A DNA stretch of 64,000 bases from Ramlibacter tataouinensis. Its GTDB lineage: Bacteria > Pseudomonadota > Gammaproteobacteria > Burkholderiales > Burkholderiaceae_C. This document shows positions 26,569 to 33,679 of the stretch, in pieces (position 1 is the first letter of the stretch; the number at the start of each line of letters is the position of its first letter). Location: NCBI RefSeq assembly GCF_027941915.1, contig NZ_CP116009.1, positions 2,914,001 through 2,978,000 on the forward strand, written 5' to 3'. A program made the translations under genes and the position numbers. The notes below the pieces were generated by a model. The model was not told the DNA's origin and ran no database searches. It saw only the letters and a list, made by a program, of their open reading frames with translations.

Positions 26569-27711
26569 ATGGCCGAACAAAGCGACCTGGAAAAAACCGA
26601 ACCTGCGTCACCGCGGCGCCTGGAGAAGGCGCGCGAGGAAGGCGACGTCGCCCGTTCGCGCGAGCTGGTCACGTTCGTCCTGCTGGCAACCGGTGCCGCA
26701 GGCCTGTGGTTCACGGCCGCCGGACTTCGCGAGCGCCTCGCCGCGTCGCTCGCGCGGGCGCTGCGCGTCGACCGCGCCGGCGCCTTCGATCCCACGCGCA
26801 TGACCGACCAGGCCGTGTCAGCGGCCACGGGGGTGTTGCCGGCCCTGGCGCCCGCGCTCGGCCTCACCCTGGTCGCCGCCCTGGTCGCGCCCGTGCTGCT
26901 GGGCGGCTGGATGGTGTCGACCAAGCGCCTGCTGCCGGACTTCGGCCGGCTCGATCCGCTCAAGGGCCTGGGCCGGCTGGTCTCGCTCGACGCACTGGCC
27001 GAACTGGTGAAGGCGGTGCTCAAGCTGCTGCTGGTCGGCGGCGTCGCCGCCTGGGTGATCGCCGCCCAGAGCGAGGCGCTGCTGTCGCTGATGGGCGAGG
27101 CGACGCAATCGGGTCTCGAGCACGCCGTGCGGCTGGTGGCCTTCAGCTGCGCCGCCATCGTCGCTTCGCTGCTGCTGATCGCGAGCGTCGACGTGCCCTG
27201 GCAGCTCTGGCGCTACCACCAGCGCCACCGCATGTCGCGCGAGGACCTGCGCCAGGAGCAGAAGGAAAGCGACGGCGACCCGCACGTCAAGGCGCAGATC
27301 CGCCGCCAGCAGCAGGCGATGGCGCGCCGCCGCATGATGTCCGAGGTGCCCAGGGCCGACATCGTGGTGACCAACCCGACGCACTTCGCCGTGGCGCTGC
27401 GCTACCGCGACGGCGAGATGGGCGCGCCGCGCGTGGTCGCCAAGGGCACCGAGCTGGTGGCGCTGCGCATCCGCGAGCTGGCGCGCGAGCACGGCGTGCC
27501 GCTGCTGGAGGCGCCGCCGCTCACGCGCGCGCTGTACCGCCACTGCGACCTGGGCGCGGAGATCCCCGCCGCCCTGTACACGGCCGTTGCCGAGGTGCTG
27601 GCCTGGGCCTTCCAGCTCCACCGCTGGCGCAGCAGCGGCGGCGCCGAGCCGCGCACGCCGCGCGACCTGCCGGTGCCCGCCGCGCTGGACCCGGCCGCGA
27701 GTCCCGCATGA
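26569..27711 (+). CDS. flhB: Flagellar type III export protein FlhB
   Basis: 380 residues. Four membrane helices occupy about residues 30-215, and the cytoplasmic domain carries the self-cleavage site Asn269-Pro270-Thr-His (TNPTHFAVALRY), the same numbering as in Salmonella. Autocleavage lets FlhB switch export from hook to filament substrates together with FliK. The N-terminus is the standard EKTEPASPRRLEKAREEGDV. Its stop overlaps the flhA start (ATGA), and it opens the export-gate operon after a 166-bp gap. Confidence 0.96.
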   Translation: MAEQSDLEKTEPASPRRLEKAREEGDVARSRELVTFVLLATGAAGLWFTAAGLRERLAASLARALRVDRAGAFDPTRMTDQAVSAATGVLPALAPALGLTLVAALVAPVLLGGWMVSTKRLLPDFGRLDPLKGLGRLVSLDALAELVKAVLKLLLVGGVAAWVIAAQSEALLSLMGEATQSGLEHAVRLVAFSCAAIVASLLLIASVDVPWQLWRYHQRHRMSREDLRQEQKESDGDPHVKAQIRRQQQAMARRRMMSEVPRADIVVTNPTHFAVALRYRDGEMGAPRVVAKGTELVALRIRELAREHGVPLLEAPPLTRALYRHCDLGAEIPAALYTAVAEVLAWAFQLHRWRSSGGAEPRTPRDLPVPAALDPAASPA

Positions 27712-29825
27712 GGGGCATGGATCCCCACCGGCCGGCCGCGGCCTGGTCGCAGATGGCCCGGCAATGGCTGCGCGGCGGCCAGGCGCAGGGCCTGGTCGGC
27801 CCCGTCCTGATCGTCATGATCCTGGCGATGATGGTGCTGCCGCTGCCGCCCATCCTGCTGGACCTGCTGTTCACCTTCAACATCGCGCTGTCCATCATGG
27901 TGCTGCTGGTGAGCATGTACACCATGAAGGCGCTGGACTTCGCGGCCTTTCCCTCGGTGCTGCTGTTCACCACGCTGCTGCGGCTGTCGCTGAACGTCGC
28001 CTCCACCCGCGTGGTGCTGATGGAGGGCCACACCGGCCCGGACGCGGCCGGCAAGGTGATCGAGGCCTTCGGCCATTTCCTGGTCGGCGGCAACTTCGCG
28101 GTCGGCACGCTGGTGTTCCTCATCCTGGTGGTGATCAACTTCATGGTGATCACCAAGGGCGCCGGCCGCATCGCCGAGGTCGGCGCGCGCTTCGCGCTGG
28201 ATGCCATGCCGGGCAAGCAGATGGCGATCGATGCCGACCTCAATGCCGGCCTGATCACCGAGGAGGTCGCCCGCACCCGCCGCGCCGAGGTGGCCCAGGA
28301 GGCGGACTTCTACGGCTCGATGGACGGCGCCAGCAAGTTCGTGCGCGGCGACGCGGTCGCCGGCCTGCTGATCATGGGCATCAACATCGTCGGCGGCCTG
28401 GTCGTCGGCATGCTCCAGCATGACCTCGACTTCGCAACCGCCGGCCGCACGTACACCCTGCTGGCGATCGGTGATGGCCTGGTGGCGCAGATCCCCGCGC
28501 TGGTGATCTCCACCGCCGCCGGCGTGGTCGTCTCGCGCGTCGCCACCGACCAGGACGTCGGCAGCCAGCTCACCAGCCAGCTGTTCTCCAACCCGCAGGT
28601 GCTGTTCCTGGCGGCGGGCATCGTCGGCCTGCTGGGCCTGATCCCCGGCATGCCCAACCTGTCCTTCCTGCTCATCGCCGGCGGCCTGGCCTGGTTCGGC
28701 CGGCGGCTGGCGCTGCGCAGCGCTGCCCCGGCGCCGGCGCCGGGCGGCAGCGCGCCCGCCCTGGCGCAGGCGGCGGCCGCGGCCGAACCGCAGGAGGCCA
28801 GCTGGGACGACGTGGCGCTGGTCGATCCGCTGGGGCTGGAGGTCGGCTACCGGCTGATTCCGATGGTCGACCACAGCCAGAGCGGCGAGCTGCTGGGCCG
28901 CATCAAGGGCATCCGCAAGAAGTTCGCGCAGGAGGTCGGCTTCCTGGTGCCGGTGGTCCACGTCCGCGACAACCTCGAATTCAAGCCCAACGCCTACGCC
29001 GTCACGCTCAAGGGCGTGCAGATCGCGCGCGGCGAGGCCTGGCCGGGGCAGTGGCTGGCCATCGATCCCGGCCAGGTGAGCGCGCCGCTGCCCGGCACGC
29101 CCACGCGCGACCCGGCCTTCGGCCTGCCGGCGGTCTGGATCGCCGCCGAACTGCGCGAGCAGGCGCAGGTCTACGGCTACACCGTGGTCGACGCCAGCAC
29201 GGTGGTCGCGACCCACCTGAACCACCTGCTGCACCAGCATGCGGCGGAGCTGCTGGGCCGCCAGGAGGTGCGCCAGCTGCTGGACCGCGTCGGCAAGGAG
29301 GTGCCCGGGCTGGTCGACGACCTGGTGCCCAAGGTGCTGCCGCTGGCCACCGTGCAGAAGGTGCTGCAGAACCTGCTGGAGGAGGGGGTGGCGATCCGCG
29401 ACATGCGCACCATCCTCGAGACGCTGGCCGAGCATGCGGCGACGGTCACCGATGCCACCGAGCTCACTTCGCTGGCGCGCCTGGCGCTGGGCCGCGCGAT
29501 CGTGCAGCAGGTCTTCCCGGGCGACGAGGAGCTGCAGGTCATCGGCCTGGACGGCACGCTGGACCGCGTGCTGCTGCAGGCCCTGGGCAGCGGCGGCGGG
29601 CTGGAGCCCGGCCTGGCCGACAAGCTGCTGCGCCAGGCCGAGGCCGCCATCGCCCGGCAGGCGCAGCTCGCGCTGGCGCCGGTGCTGGTCGTGCAGCACC
29701 CGCTGCGGGTGCTGCTGGCGCGCTTCCTGCGCCGCAGCCTGCCGCAGCTGAAGGTGCTCTCGCACGCGGAAATACCTGACGGCCGCACCCTCAAGGTGAC
29801 GGCGACTCTCGGAGGAACAGCTTGA
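27708..29825 (+). CDS. flhA: Flagellar type III export gate protein FlhA
   Basis: 705 residues. Eight membrane segments fill the first ~320 residues (e.g. LDLLFTFNIALSIMVLLV), with the FHIPEP-family loop GAGRIAEVGARFALDAMPGK and EADFYGSMDGASKFVRGDA between helices. The rest is the cytoplasmic ring domain that binds chaperone-substrate complexes. The ATG at 27708 overlaps the flhB stop; a second ATG at 27717 is possible. It conducts the proton-driven export of flagellar proteins. The stop overlaps flhF. Confidence 0.95.
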   Translation: MRGMDPHRPAAAWSQMARQWLRGGQAQGLVGPVLIVMILAMMVLPLPPILLDLLFTFNIALSIMVLLVSMYTMKALDFAAFPSVLLFTTLLRLSLNVASTRVVLMEGHTGPDAAGKVIEAFGHFLVGGNFAVGTLVFLILVVINFMVITKGAGRIAEVGARFALDAMPGKQMAIDADLNAGLITEEVARTRRAEVAQEADFYGSMDGASKFVRGDAVAGLLIMGINIVGGLVVGMLQHDLDFATAGRTYTLLAIGDGLVAQIPALVISTAAGVVVSRVATDQDVGSQLTSQLFSNPQVLFLAAGIVGLLGLIPGMPNLSFLLIAGGLAWFGRRLALRSAAPAPAPGGSAPALAQAAAAAEPQEASWDDVALVDPLGLEVGYRLIPMVDHSQSGELLGRIKGIRKKFAQEVGFLVPVVHVRDNLEFKPNAYAVTLKGVQIARGEAWPGQWLAIDPGQVSAPLPGTPTRDPAFGLPAVWIAAELREQAQVYGYTVVDASTVVATHLNHLLHQHAAELLGRQEVRQLLDRVGKEVPGLVDDLVPKVLPLATVQKVLQNLLEEGVAIRDMRTILETLAEHAATVTDATELTSLARLALGRAIVQQVFPGDEELQVIGLDGTLDRVLLQALGSGGGLEPGLADKLLRQAEAAIARQAQLALAPVLVVQHPLRVLLARFLRRSLPQLKVLSHAEIPDGRTLKVTATLGGTA

Positions 29826-32104
29826 TGATCCCTGGCGCCGCCCCGGCCCCTCTCCGCTTCCTGGCCCGCTCCGGCCGCGAGGCCCTGCGCCTCGCGCGCG
29901 AGGCGCTCGGCCCGGAGGCGGTCATCGTCTCCAACCGCATCACCGCCGACGGCGTGGAGATCCTGGCCGCGCCGCCGCTGGTGCCGGCGCCAGCGGCGGC
30001 GGCCGCGATCGCCGCCGCGCCGCTGCCGCTGTCCCTGCCATCGCAGCCCCTGGCCGCGGCGCCGTCGACGCCCGACGCCGTGCTGCGGGAACTGCTGTCC
30101 ATGCGCAGCATGATCGAGGAGCAGCTCGCCGGGCGCGCCTGGAGCGAGGAGCAGCGGCGCGATCCGCTGCGCGGCCACCTGCTGCGCCTGATGCTGGGCG
30201 CCGGCTTCAGCGCGCGGCTGGCCCGCGCCACCGTCGATGCGCTGCCCGCCGGACTCACGCACGCCGACGGCCTGGCCTGGCTGCGCAACGAACTGGCGGG
30301 GCGGCTGCCCGCGATCGCGGGCGACGACGCGTTGCTGGACGCGGGCGGCGTGTTCGCGCTGGTGGGTCCCACCGGCGTAGGCAAGACCACCACCACCGCC
30401 AAGCTCGCCGCGCGCTGCGTGCTGCGCTTCGGCGCCGGGAAGCTGGCGCTGGTCACCACCGACAGCTACCGGATCGGCGCCTACGAGCAGCTGCGCATCT
30501 ACGGCCGCATCCTGGGCGTGCCGGTGCACGCCGTGAAGGACGCGGGCGACCTGCGGCTGGTGCTGGAGGACCTGCGCGACAAGCACATGGTGCTGATCGA
30601 CACGGTCGGCATGAGCCAGCGCGACCGCGCGGTCTCCGACCAGGTGGCGATGCTGTGCGACGCCCAGCGGCCGGTGCGCCGGCTGCTGCTGCTCAACGCC
30701 ACCAGCCACGGCGACACCCTGGACGAGGTGGTGCACGCCTACCGCCGCGGCGGCCGCGAGGGCGCCGACGACCTGGCCGGCTGCATCCTGACCAAGGTCG
30801 ACGAGGCCACCCATCCCGGCGCCGTGATCGATACGGTGATCCGCCACGGCCTGCCGCTGCACTACGTCTCCAGCGGCCAGAAGGTGCCCGAGCACCTGTC
30901 GCTGCCCGATCCGCAGCGCCTGGTCGAGGCGGCGTTCCAGGCCCGCAGCCGCACGGCGCTGTTCGTGCCGGGCGAGATCGTGGCGCAGGAGCAGCTGGCG
31001 AGCCTGCGCACCGAGGCCGACGTCGCCCTCGCGCAGTCGGTGGCCAGCCGCCTGCGCGCGCAATGCCACCAGCTGGTGCGCGCGCTGGCGAGCGATGCGC
31101 GCGAACTGGCCGGCCACGCGAGCGCGCTGGCGGACGGCGGCATCGGCTTCGAGCATGCGCGGGCGCTGTGGCGCGGCGTGGAAGGCGGCGCCACAGCGCC
31201 GCCGGACCCGCAGCCCGCCGCGCCGGATCCGGCCGCCGCCGGCGCGCAGTGCGACAGCCACCTGCTCGCCACCTGCGGCAGCGTGGAGCGGCTCGACGAG
31301 GATGGACGGCGCCAGCGGCAGGAGGTCGCGCTGCTGCTGTCCGACCGCACCGGGCTGCCGCTGGCAGCGACGCTGCGCGCGGCGCTGGCCGCGCCCGATC
31401 CCGGCCGCCCGGTGGTGCTGCTGCTGGGTGCGCCGCCCGCCGCCGCGGCGGGCGAAGGCACCCCCGCGCTGGCCTGGCTGGCGCGCGCGCCGGCCCGCCT
31501 GCGCGTGCGCACCGAAGCGGACCGCAGCGCGACGCTCGCCGGCGTCGCGGCCGGGCTGGCGTTCGGCCCCGCGCAGGCGGTCGCGCACCGCGGCCGTCCG
31601 GCGCTGCAATCGCTGGCCGAGGCGCGGGTCGCGCTGGCCGCCGGCCAGCCGCTGCAGCGCCTGGTTGTCGTCCGCACGCTCGACACCCGCGGCCAGCTGC
31701 TCGCCCAGCGCTACCTGCTGGCGAGCGGCGCGCTGGCGGTCGACGCGGCGCGGCTGGTCCAGTGGCAGGCCTGGCGGGCGGCGGTGCAGCCGTGCTTTCG
31801 CCTGATGAAGGAGGCGCACCAGCAGCTGGCCGCCTCCGGGCCGCCCGAAGCCGATCGCGCGCAGCCGATGCTCGTCGCACAGGCCAGCACCACCGTGTGG
31901 CGCCTGGCGCAGGCGCGCGAGGGCTGGGCGCAGCCTGCGCGCGCGCTGCTGGCGCAGCTGGCCGGCCGGCGCCTGCGCCCCGGGCGCGCCATTCCGCCGG
32001 CGGTCCTGTTCGAAGGGCTGGGCAAGTTCTGCGTGCTGCTGGACGCGCTGGCGCAGGACGAAGCGCCGGCGCCCGCCGGGCGGCTCGCTGCCGGGTGCGC
32101 GTGA
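29825..32104 (+). CDS. flhF: Flagellar biosynthesis SRP-family GTPase FlhF, with long C-terminal extension
   Basis: 759 residues, start ATG sharing one base with the flhA stop. The N-terminal B domain and an Ala/Pro-rich linker (to about residue 85) precede the NG GTPase domain: P-loop VGPTGVGKTTTTAKLAA near residue 178, TTDSYRIGAYEQL, LIDTVGMSQRD and LTKVDEA. In most homologues the protein ends soon after this domain (about residue 375); here another ~380 residues follow without a motif I recognise. FlhF fixes the position and number of polar flagella. It is followed by flhG and fliA. Confidence 0.92.
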   Translation: MIPGAAPAPLRFLARSGREALRLAREALGPEAVIVSNRITADGVEILAAPPLVPAPAAAAAIAAAPLPLSLPSQPLAAAPSTPDAVLRELLSMRSMIEEQLAGRAWSEEQRRDPLRGHLLRLMLGAGFSARLARATVDALPAGLTHADGLAWLRNELAGRLPAIAGDDALLDAGGVFALVGPTGVGKTTTTAKLAARCVLRFGAGKLALVTTDSYRIGAYEQLRIYGRILGVPVHAVKDAGDLRLVLEDLRDKHMVLIDTVGMSQRDRAVSDQVAMLCDAQRPVRRLLLLNATSHGDTLDEVVHAYRRGGREGADDLAGCILTKVDEATHPGAVIDTVIRHGLPLHYVSSGQKVPEHLSLPDPQRLVEAAFQARSRTALFVPGEIVAQEQLASLRTEADVALAQSVASRLRAQCHQLVRALASDARELAGHASALADGGIGFEHARALWRGVEGGATAPPDPQPAAPDPAAAGAQCDSHLLATCGSVERLDEDGRRQRQEVALLLSDRTGLPLAATLRAALAAPDPGRPVVLLLGAPPAAAAGEGTPALAWLARAPARLRVRTEADRSATLAGVAAGLAFGPAQAVAHRGRPALQSLAEARVALAAGQPLQRLVVVRTLDTRGQLLAQRYLLASGALAVDAARLVQWQAWRAAVQPCFRLMKEAHQQLAASGPPEADRAQPMLVAQASTTVWRLAQAREGWAQPARALLAQLAGRRLRPGRAIPPAVLFEGLGKFCVLLDALAQDEAPAPAGRLAAGCA

Positions 32105-32114
32105 GGGCAGCGCC

Positions 32115-32912
32115 ATGACGCTCAAGACCGGCAGCGACCAGGCCGACGGCCTGCGCCGGCTGATGGGCCGCGACCGCGGCCGGCTGGTCGCCGTCGTCGG
32201 CAGCCACCCGCGCGTGGGCGCCACCAGCACCGCGCTCCATCTCGCGGCGGCCCTGTGGCAGCAGGGCCAGAACGTGCTGGTGCTGGACGAGCACGGCGGT
32301 GCCCGCTCGGCCAGCGCCGCCTGCAGCGAACCGGCGCGGGCGAGCTGGCCGGAGGTGGCGGCGCAGAGCGTGTCGCTGGCCGCCGCCGCGGGCCGCGCCT
32401 GGGGCGCGGTGCCGGTGCTCGCGGCCCAGCCCGACCGCATGCCGGCGGCCCTCGACCCGCGGCGCGCCATCGCCGGGCGCATCGCGCTGGTCGACGCCGC
32501 GCTGGATGAGCACGGCCGGCTGTCGCCGCTCGCGCGCCGGGCCGACGACGTCCTGGTGGTCCTGCAGCCGCAGCCGCATTCGCTGCAGGCCGCCTATGCG
32601 CGCATCAAGGCCCTGCACCACGCGCACGCGCTGCTGCAGCTGCGCATCCTGCTCACCCAGGCCGGCGACGCCGCCGAGTCCGATCGCATCTGCGGCAACC
32701 TGGTGCGCACCGGCGGCCGCTACCTGGCCATGGCGCTGGAGCCGGCCGGCTGCATCCGCGCCGACGCGCAGCTGCCGCAGGCCCAGCGGCTCGGCCTCGG
32801 CGTGGTGCAGGCCTTCCCGGCCGCGCCGTCGGCGGCCGACCTGCGCCGCATCGCCGCCGAGCTGCTGCACTGGCCCGTGCGCGCCGCCCCGGCGGCGGCC
32901 GCGGCAGCCTGA
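32115..32912 (+). CDS. flhG: FlhG/FleN-like ParA-type ATPase with degenerate nucleotide site
   Basis: 265 residues with the MinD/ParA layout and placed, as usual, between flhF and fliA. The deviant Walker A motif, KGGVGKT in active FlhG, reads HPRVGAT here (VVGSHPRVGATSTALHLA), so both lysines are missing; the DAD motif after LVL is LDEHGG, and the switch Asp lies in LVDAA. ATP hydrolysis and ATP-driven dimerisation are therefore doubtful. FlhG normally limits flagellar number by acting on FlhF. It may be a structural variant that still binds partners. Confidence 0.85.
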   Translation: MTLKTGSDQADGLRRLMGRDRGRLVAVVGSHPRVGATSTALHLAAALWQQGQNVLVLDEHGGARSASAACSEPARASWPEVAAQSVSLAAAAGRAWGAVPVLAAQPDRMPAALDPRRAIAGRIALVDAALDEHGRLSPLARRADDVLVVLQPQPHSLQAAYARIKALHHAHALLQLRILLTQAGDAAESDRICGNLVRTGGRYLAMALEPAGCIRADAQLPQAQRLGLGVVQAFPAAPSAADLRRIAAELLHWPVRAAPAAAAAA

Positions 32913-32947: not shown

Positions 32948-33679
32948 ATGTACACATCGCAGGGCAAGATCGACAAGGCGGCGCAGTCCGACCTGCTGAC
33001 GCACTATGCGCCGCTGGTGCGGCGGCTGGCGCTGCGGCTGGCGGCCCGGCTGCCGGCCAGCGTGGAGGTGGACGACCTGATCCAGGCCGGCATCCTCGGC
33101 CTGCTCGACGCCGGCTCGCGCTACCAGGACGGCCACGGCGCGAAGTTCGAGACCTTCGCCACCCAGCGCATCCGCGGCGCCATGCTGGACGAACTGCGCG
33201 CGCACGACTGGGTGCCGCGCGGGCTGCGCCAATCGGGCCGGAAGGTCGAGGAGGCGATTCGCGCCGCCAGCCAGAAGCAGGGCCGCGCCCCGACCGAGCC
33301 GGAGGTGGCCGAGGCCCTGGGCCTGCCGCTGGAGGCGTACCAGGCCCTGCTGCAGGAGCTGCAGGGCTGCCAGCTGGTCTACTACGAGGACTTCGAGGCG
33401 GCCGAGGGCGGCAACAGCTTCCTGGACGACCACGCCGCCGACGGCGAGGCGCGCTTCGGTCCGCTGGAGCAGCTGGTGGAGAGCCGCTTGCGGCGCCAGC
33501 TGGTGGCGGCCATCGAGGCGCTGCCGGAGCGCGACCGCCTGCTGCTGAGCCTGTGCTACGAGCAGGAACTCAACCTGCGCGAGATCGGCGCCATCATGGA
33601 GATCAGCCAGTCGCGCGTGTGCCAGCTGCACGGTCAGGCGATCAGCCGGCTGCGCGCCAGCCTGCGCGACGCGCTGTAG
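32948..33679 (+). CDS. fliA: RNA polymerase sigma-28 factor FliA
   Basis: 243 residues. Region 2 is seen in LTHYAPLVRRLALRLAARLP, VDDLIQAGILGLLDA and FETFATQRIRGAMLDELR; region 3 in APTEPEVAEALG; region 4 in RDRLLLSLCYEQELNLREIG with helix-turn-helix ISQSRVCQLHGQAISRLR. FliA transcribes late flagellar genes; two matching promoters are present at 34474-34500 and 50023-50049. Its inhibitor FlgM is encoded convergently less than 1 kb away. Confidence 0.96.
   Translation: MYTSQGKIDKAAQSDLLTHYAPLVRRLALRLAARLPASVEVDDLIQAGILGLLDAGSRYQDGHGAKFETFATQRIRGAMLDELRAHDWVPRGLRQSGRKVEEAIRAASQKQGRAPTEPEVAEALGLPLEAYQALLQELQGCQLVYYEDFEAAEGGNSFLDDHAADGEARFGPLEQLVESRLRRQLVAAIEALPERDRLLLSLCYEQELNLREIGAIMEISQSRVCQLHGQAISRLRASLRDAL

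Follow-up and report, generated by a model that had tools for sequence, protein, structure and literature searches.

Accounts of the conserved two-NTPase switch make FlhG its ATPase half, and a review of the FlhF/FlhG switch from December 2025 calls it an ATPase (PMC12826062; here and below, such numbers stand for passages of the sources and not for whole papers). ATP-dependent FlhG dimers bind the membrane through a C-terminal MTS, and the conserved glutamine of the DQAxxLR motif serves as a co-catalyst for the FlhF dimer, activating its GTPase (PMC12826062). In Vibrio, FlhG Walker A mutants lose function and are hyperflagellate and the hydrolysis mutant D60A is mild; binding of FlhG to C-ring proteins can be nucleotide-independent (PMC7226244). 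Here we describe an FlhG in which the ATPase motifs are replaced and the FlhF-activating motif is kept.

The flhG gene in the Ramlibacter window

The window, by which we mean the whole stretch of 64,000 nucleotides of Ramlibacter tataouinensis DNA that was analysed, carries flhB (26569–27711), flhA (27708–29825, start approximate, named from sequence and gene order alone), flhF (29822–32104), flhG (32115–32912) and fliA, encoding sigma-28 (32948–33679), in this order and all on the + strand. Thus flhG lies directly after flhF and before fliA, the gene position of FlhG/FleN. The flhF product is a 760-residue SRP-type GTPase whose P-loop, GPTGVGKTTTT, is intact. Taken singly, the 265-residue FlhG falls below the Pfam and NCBIfam cut-offs; a profile of 46 sequences from its order, which we take to be the old betaproteobacteria (Burkholderiales), with the window protein leading and three canonical members, matches the solved structures of FleN (E 1.1e-87) and FlhG (E 2.3e-56). 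The AlphaFold model (mean pLDDT 90.7) finds its best Foldseek matches in FleN, FlhG and MinD, and VIA gives Z 25.9 to 5j1j, at 3.1 Å over 236 residues. Open reading frame, context, profile match and predicted fold together mark the window gene as a genuine orthologue of flhG, its product having a body of the MinD type.

Residues 30–37 read SHPRVGAT (32202–32225) where FlhG has GKGGVGKT, and residues 58–62 read DEHGG where it has DADLG, so the changes from KGGVGKT to HPRVGAT and from DADLG to DEHGG pointed out in the first-pass annotation are there letter for letter. H31 stands at the position of the signature lysine and A36 at that of the P-loop lysine (presumably the 'catalytic' one, as we apply these labels here), which leaves neither the GKGGxGK[ST] motif of FlhG/FleN nor the deviant Walker A of MinD/ParA ATPases with its two lysines. 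In DEH (32286–32294) the first aspartate, D58, is present and H60 occupies the place of the catalytic second one, and by alignment the Walker B aspartate is retained as D127 (32493–32495). The N-terminal enhancer motif is retained as DQADGLR (residues 8–14, 32136–32156); homologues conserve it, and the model places it on a helix (residues 9–16) within a less certain N-terminal stretch. A further helix, residues 154–171 (32574–32627), bears Y161 and K165. The C-terminal tail (32865–32909) lacks the amphipathic motif of most canonical relatives, and its hydrophobic moment is 0.33 versus 0.53–0.61 in three relatives; no amphipathic membrane-targeting helix was thus recognised. Its residues give good support to the view that this protein is unable to act as a normal ATPase.

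One further position may be of interest. A159 (32589–32591) seemingly corresponds to what we take to be D171 of Vibrio FlhG; this position is Asp in 12/12 canonical proteins of the order, in 18 of 70 homologues without the P-loop lysine, and Ala in the window. In Vibrio, FlhG D171A is hyperactive (PMC7226244).

The first-pass annotation had named a second canonical flhG elsewhere in the genome as what might do the job instead. Queried with the window protein and with a canonical FlhG, the whole 4.47-Mb genome yielded no second FlhG. The canonical query matched 11 other places, of which six, named by eye, are presumably MinD, ApbC/Mrp, ParA/Soj, another ParA-like protein and, at two places, one ArsA-like protein; the remaining five either show nothing FlhG-like as far as visible or are too weak to tell.

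Distribution and history across the order

We call an FlhG canonical if it has GKGGxGKT with DAD, P-loop only if it has GxxxxGK[ST] without the full canonical set, and assign the remainder, with no P-loop lysine, to a third class. Among 125 homologues from the order linked to flhF or fliA, 12 are canonical, 26 are P-loop only and 87 lack the P-loop lysine, the canonical set being broken by varied residues in 113; the comparison with related genera that the first-pass annotation had proposed thus turned up the same kind of change. Of the 130 linked FlhG read from the remainder of the class, 129 are canonical, and the single exception has DAN for DAD. This contrast (113/125 versus 1/130) argues against chance or a sequencing slip. 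The motif change is general across the portion of the order that was read and not peculiar to the window genome, and the first-pass reading, whose claim of a lost normal ATPase function holds up well, has to be widened from one genome to an order.

The 200 genomes of the order survey comprise 125 non-window genomes with a match, of which 109 matches were read and 16 unread, and 74 without one. From 132 linked loci, 25 of 27 of Caballeronia type (L070 and L096 were kept) and the truncated L154 were removed, giving a main set of 106 (12 canonical, 24 P-loop only, 70 without the P-loop lysine), and 24 loci unlinked to flhF or fliA stayed outside the order set. An added check of 20 weak matches contributed 19 linked loci (2 P-loop only, 17 without the P-loop lysine, none canonical) and one unlinked ParA-like protein (L341). 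The trees, column counts and tail test below are based on the 106, or on its 70, and not on the 125. All 12 canonical proteins belong to the window's own family, where 17 were read and 5 are non-canonical; outside this family, 108/108 are non-canonical. The family is thinly sampled (38 loci from other genomes, 16 of them linked, with more than 100 further matches unread), and it was queried with a degenerate FlhG, so that 12 canonical among 17 is a figure for this sample and not for the family. In the class sample, 130 FlhG were read from 152 genomes with a match (22 unread); the search profile held both canonical and degenerate types and scored the window protein at 4.8e-87, and a degenerate FlhG in the class would therefore have shown.

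For the history of the change we used two trees, both quick searches. The first was built from the FlhF G domain and FliA, without FlhG residues (121 of 128 rows with both genes, taking in 22 of the 130 class loci); on it 1 change (SH-aLRT 95) accounts for canonical versus non-canonical, and 10 changes are needed for the losses of the P-loop lysine, at least 6 of them forced by well supported branches. In the second (76 rows, mixture model, long branches out) the numbers are 1 change (support 90) and 9 changes, at least 4 forced. As the trees give 1 change against about 10, with canonical outgroups, we infer, the direction included, that the lineage of the order left the canonical set once and early, and that the P-loop lysine was afterwards lost repeatedly.

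Within the window's genus, matches to the window FlhG at E ≤ 1e-3 occur in only 10 of 59 genomes, the window's own included, and the same FlhG type in just one other (L003, 43%), so the flagellar set appears patchy there. Seven loci of the window's genus or family (L004–L008, L029, L035) carry a different flhF–flhG–fliA set with canonical FlhG, mostly without DQAxxLR; six of them form a long separate branch in the tree, which would be a second flagellar type or a transfer.

DQAxxLR is present in 112 of the 113 degenerate FlhG of the order, the exception (L338) having HQASGLQ, with the glutamine kept. Across the 70 proteins without the P-loop lysine, D8, Q9, A10, L13, R14, Y161 and K165 are invariant, while both lysine positions and that of the catalytic aspartate are variable; position 36 is R in 16, Q in 12, T in 10, V in 8 and A in 7, plus others, and six show K36 solely through a rewritten, glycine-poor loop aligned across the position. 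D58 and D127 are each kept in 62/70 and the pair G35 plus T/S37 in 55/70. The 15 without this pair all have DQAxxLR, and eleven of them read as lacking a glycine-rich loop. One clade (L016, L018, L121, L123, L125, L127, L132–L134, L138) has no recognisable glycine-rich loop and a kept DQAxxLR helix.

Two simple rules of loss do not survive these counts. The MTS-like tail motif is kept in 32/70, by a crude pattern that misses 4/12 canonical tails, so that loss of the MTS together with the P-loop is no general rule; because the motif is kept there, membrane binding may survive in many of these relatives. Lys at position 31 remains in 4/24 P-loop-only and 6/70 lysine-less proteins, and Asp at position 60 in 0/24 and 7/70, which makes it too strong to say that the signature lysine and catalytic aspartate went first in all.

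The reverse combination exists as well. DQAxxLR is found in 5/12 canonical FlhG of the order (6/12 if the entire open frame is scanned, which admits chance matches), and in the class outside the order 57 of 129 canonical FlhG lack the strict form and 54 a looser one, a few having close variants such as DQAxGMRR or DQAxGIRR. Helix module and ATPase module thus come apart in both directions. Class proteins that reverse the window's situation include L241, L250, L258, L262, L264, L265, L273 and L279, among others. Two proteins bear on a loss of both modules: L338 of the order (HQASGLQ) and L281 of the class, which has GKGGVGKS with DAN and is without DQAxxLR.

Selection was measured in 26 records of Caballeronia type, part of them labelled Burkholderia, in which FlhG has no P-loop lysine. 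The median dN/dS of flhG as a whole is 0.24; it is 0.0 for the 12 codons from DQA onward, 0.23 for columns 13–60 around the former Walker A, 0.15 for columns 60–250 and 0.70 in the tail. The FlhF NG domain of the same set has 0.09. This pattern is unlike that of a decaying gene, and flhG is a still working gene under purifying selection in these records.

The FlhF extension and the flagellar regulators

The window FlhF continues for about 375 residues beyond its GTPase domain (residues 386–760, 30977–32101, + strand), with no Pfam family match. This extension was seen in six genomes (the window's, L169–L172 and L310) and in 4 of 189 FlhF frames measured at other loci; 399 order genomes surveyed gave eight with any match, namely five with the extension, one with a free-standing transposase (L311) and two weak. 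Over its full length the extension is related in sequence to Tn5-like DDE transposases: BLASTP against L311 gives 7e-25 for L171 and 1e-14 over 150 residues for the window, named plasmid transposases align with it too, and hhalign of profile against profile reaches a probability of 99.9 (E 1.8e-33 over 363 columns). All three comparisons are independent of the AlphaFold model of the extension, a weak one (pLDDT 63.4) whose underlying alignment held one real transposase, L311, and for which Foldseek at E ≤ 0.001 hits nothing but the Tn5 transposase inhibitor and Tn5 transposase. The DDE domain is recognised by Pfam in L311, the free transposase, and not in the extensions of FlhF. Judged by what we take to be the catalytic residues of Tn5, the first aspartate is absent in 6/6 extensions, a full triad occurs in none and the window has none of the residues; at the place of the first aspartate, one free transposase also has Asn and one is unaligned. 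The extension is thus derived from a transposase of the Tn5-like kind, and its DDE residues are broken.

In two genomes of one genus the extensions are 63% identical with pN/pS 0.54, and the NG domains 87% with 0.21; pN/pS for distant extension pairs is near saturation. The NCBIfam family NF011312 spans long FlhF, and its name gives no origin for the extension. No description of an FlhF–transposase fusion was found in the open-access literature, among the matches listed; with such a fusion, a transposase would have become part of the machinery that places flagella. In the five cases with both genes read, the extension adjoins an FlhG without the P-loop lysine. Most such FlhG have no extended FlhF alongside, so that the extension cannot be the general replacement.

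FleQ-type regulators are the published transcriptional target of FlhG/FleN; their distribution and that of FlhC were surveyed in order and class. The window genome has flhC about 7 kb past the window's end, behind an ORF that we presume to encode FlhD, and its FleQ-family match is weak (28.2 bits, with the Pfam cut-off at 22), most class genomes scoring far higher. For 79 of the 105 order genomes chosen and for 80 class genomes (including G595, the bearer of L281), FleQ-family matches at E ≤ 1e-8 occur in 63/80 class versus 0/79 order genomes, and FlhC at E ≤ 1e-70 in 0/80 versus 30/79, a contrast at strict thresholds that would fit loss of the FleQ job in the order. At Pfam cut-offs it is weaker (FleQ 77/80 class versus 35/79 order, the window genome included; FlhC 6/80 versus 33/79), which speaks against FleQ loss or FlhDC gain as a single cause. 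Inside the order, strong FlhC matches do not follow motif class (22/50 genomes without the P-loop lysine, 6/17 P-loop only, 2/12 canonical), and FlhDC was rejected as the cause there; the 12 canonical genomes are likewise without a strong FleQ match. FleQ loss and FlhDC gain are at best part of the cause.

Published flagellation in the order offers a loose point of comparison. In Burkholderia glumae the flagella are multiple and polar, flhF depends on FlhDC, and co-transcription is described for flhBAFG and fliA (PMC3885665), and B. cenocepacia has single or multiple flagella depending on the medium (PMC4905959). By analogy, both would be compatible with an FlhG that has ceased to be an ATPase; they are no test of it, the motif state of their flhG lying outside the survey.

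A pseudo-ATPase reading and its place among known systems

Because the helix is intact, the ATPase residues are gone and the tail motif is absent, we consider it probable (roughly 0.72) that the window FlhG is a pseudo-ATPase that serves FlhF as an ATP-independent activator or scaffold; the intact P-loop of FlhF and the presence of FlhC in the window genome are on the same side. Such a protein would lack canonical FlhG's ATP-dependent dimerisation and its cycle at membrane and pole. Without ATP it would activate GTP hydrolysis by FlhF constitutively, through the helix and with Q9 as the co-catalytic glutamine, as an always-on brake on FlhF, and perhaps also act as a scaffold or make contacts for C-ring proteins. 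Transcription (FlhDC in the window genome) and the levels of FlhF and FlhG would then determine how many flagella form and when, and the nucleotide state of FlhG no longer would. The first-pass annotation had held that FlhG needs ATP binding, which agrees with the Vibrio Walker A mutants (PMC7226244), but the element published as activating FlhF is the DQAxxLR helix (PMC12826062), and that helix is intact here; its suggestion of a different control of flagellar number is plausible and goes further than the sequence establishes.

Against our reading, Vibrio FlhG without ATP binding is non-functional (PMC7226244), so by analogy the window protein must be either rewired or reduced. Weak nucleotide binding through D58, D127 and G35 plus T/S37 is possible, the retention of these residues being the chief sign of a pocket that may still be occupied, and a pseudo-ATPase that senses nucleotide, binding ATP or ADP weakly through D58, D127 and the GxT loop as a switch without hydrolysis, is an unlikely alternative. 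The retention of D58 and D127 in most, and of the G35 and T/S37 pair in over three-quarters, of the lysine-less proteins would fit it, as would the mild D60A phenotype in Vibrio beside the failure of Walker A mutants (PMC7226244), whereas the window protein has neither lysine, and the proteins without the pair, eleven of them without a glycine-rich loop, keep DQAxxLR all the same. We regard as doubtful a rebuilt switch in which FlhG is purely a constitutive activator and the dead Tn5-like domain of FlhF has taken over part of the control, for example by holding FlhF dimers or by tying FlhF to DNA or partners.

Decay of the gene seems improbable by a similar measure, or slightly more so. Here flhG would be dispensable as FlhDC takes over and would drift toward loss as in enterobacteria, whose flagella, said to be betaproteobacterial in origin, are without flhF and flhG (PMC12826062); repeated loss of the P-loop lysine on the tree and the near-neutral tail in the Caballeronia-type records lean that way. 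Against it stand open reading frames in all linked order loci classed, purifying selection, a helix kept almost without exception and a fold predicted with high confidence. We give very little credence to ATP supplied in trans, in a mixed dimer of FlhG with the cell's intact MinD or another ParA: the genome does hold MinD-like and ParA/Soj-like proteins with intact Walker A, but the mixed dimer is speculation and the signature lysine that would act in trans is also gone. An error of sequencing or annotation can practically be dismissed, and so can a redundant copy accompanying a canonical FlhG at another locus; nothing found favours either. For the 4.47-Mb genome this reading is refuted: independent relatives have the same state through different residues, and no second FlhG turned up.

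If FlhG is indeed a pseudo-ATPase, a textbook switch driven by ATP may run without it here. No description of a pseudo-ATPase FlhG was found in the open-access literature, among the matches listed, and the string 'degenerat' is absent from the text of the review PMC12826062; within that open-access scope, a pseudo-ATPase FlhG as the general state of an order, in the portion of it that was read, appears to be new. Were the whole order to use an ATP-less FlhG, FlhF activation and ATP cycling would be separable functions, and its bacteria would be naturally occurring separation-of-function mutants in which the purpose of the ATPase could be studied. The state also points to an intermediate between the complete switch and the lack of it in enterobacteria, which reportedly have their flagellar genes from betaproteobacteria (PMC12826062).

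Among described systems, the best structural and profile matches of the window FlhG are to FleN, the Pseudomonas FlhG (PDB 5j1j, 7ejw, 8p53), and the flhA–flhF–fleN–fliA order of Pseudomonas (PMC6424431) is that of the window. FleN, however, restrains FleQ (PMC7226244), and the window genome has instead FlhC and just a weak FleQ-family match. Geobacillus-type FlhG/YlxH (PDB 4rz2/4rz3) resembles the window protein in profile and fold match, in its linkage to flhF and in its N-terminal DQAxxLR helix, the role of which comes from PMC12826062. With MinD/ParA the window FlhG has the fold in common, and it differs in having no deviant Walker A and in bearing the FlhF-activating helix. In canonical FlhG the dimer depends on ATP and the C-terminus carries an MTS (PMC12826062), whereas the window protein is without both Walker lysines, the catalytic aspartate and the MTS motif. 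It is the natural counterpart of the Walker A mutants and D60A of Vibrio alginolyticus FlhG, both changes together; the Vibrio Walker A mutants are hyperflagellate (PMC7226244), while in the window's lineage the same state appears to be the evolved norm.
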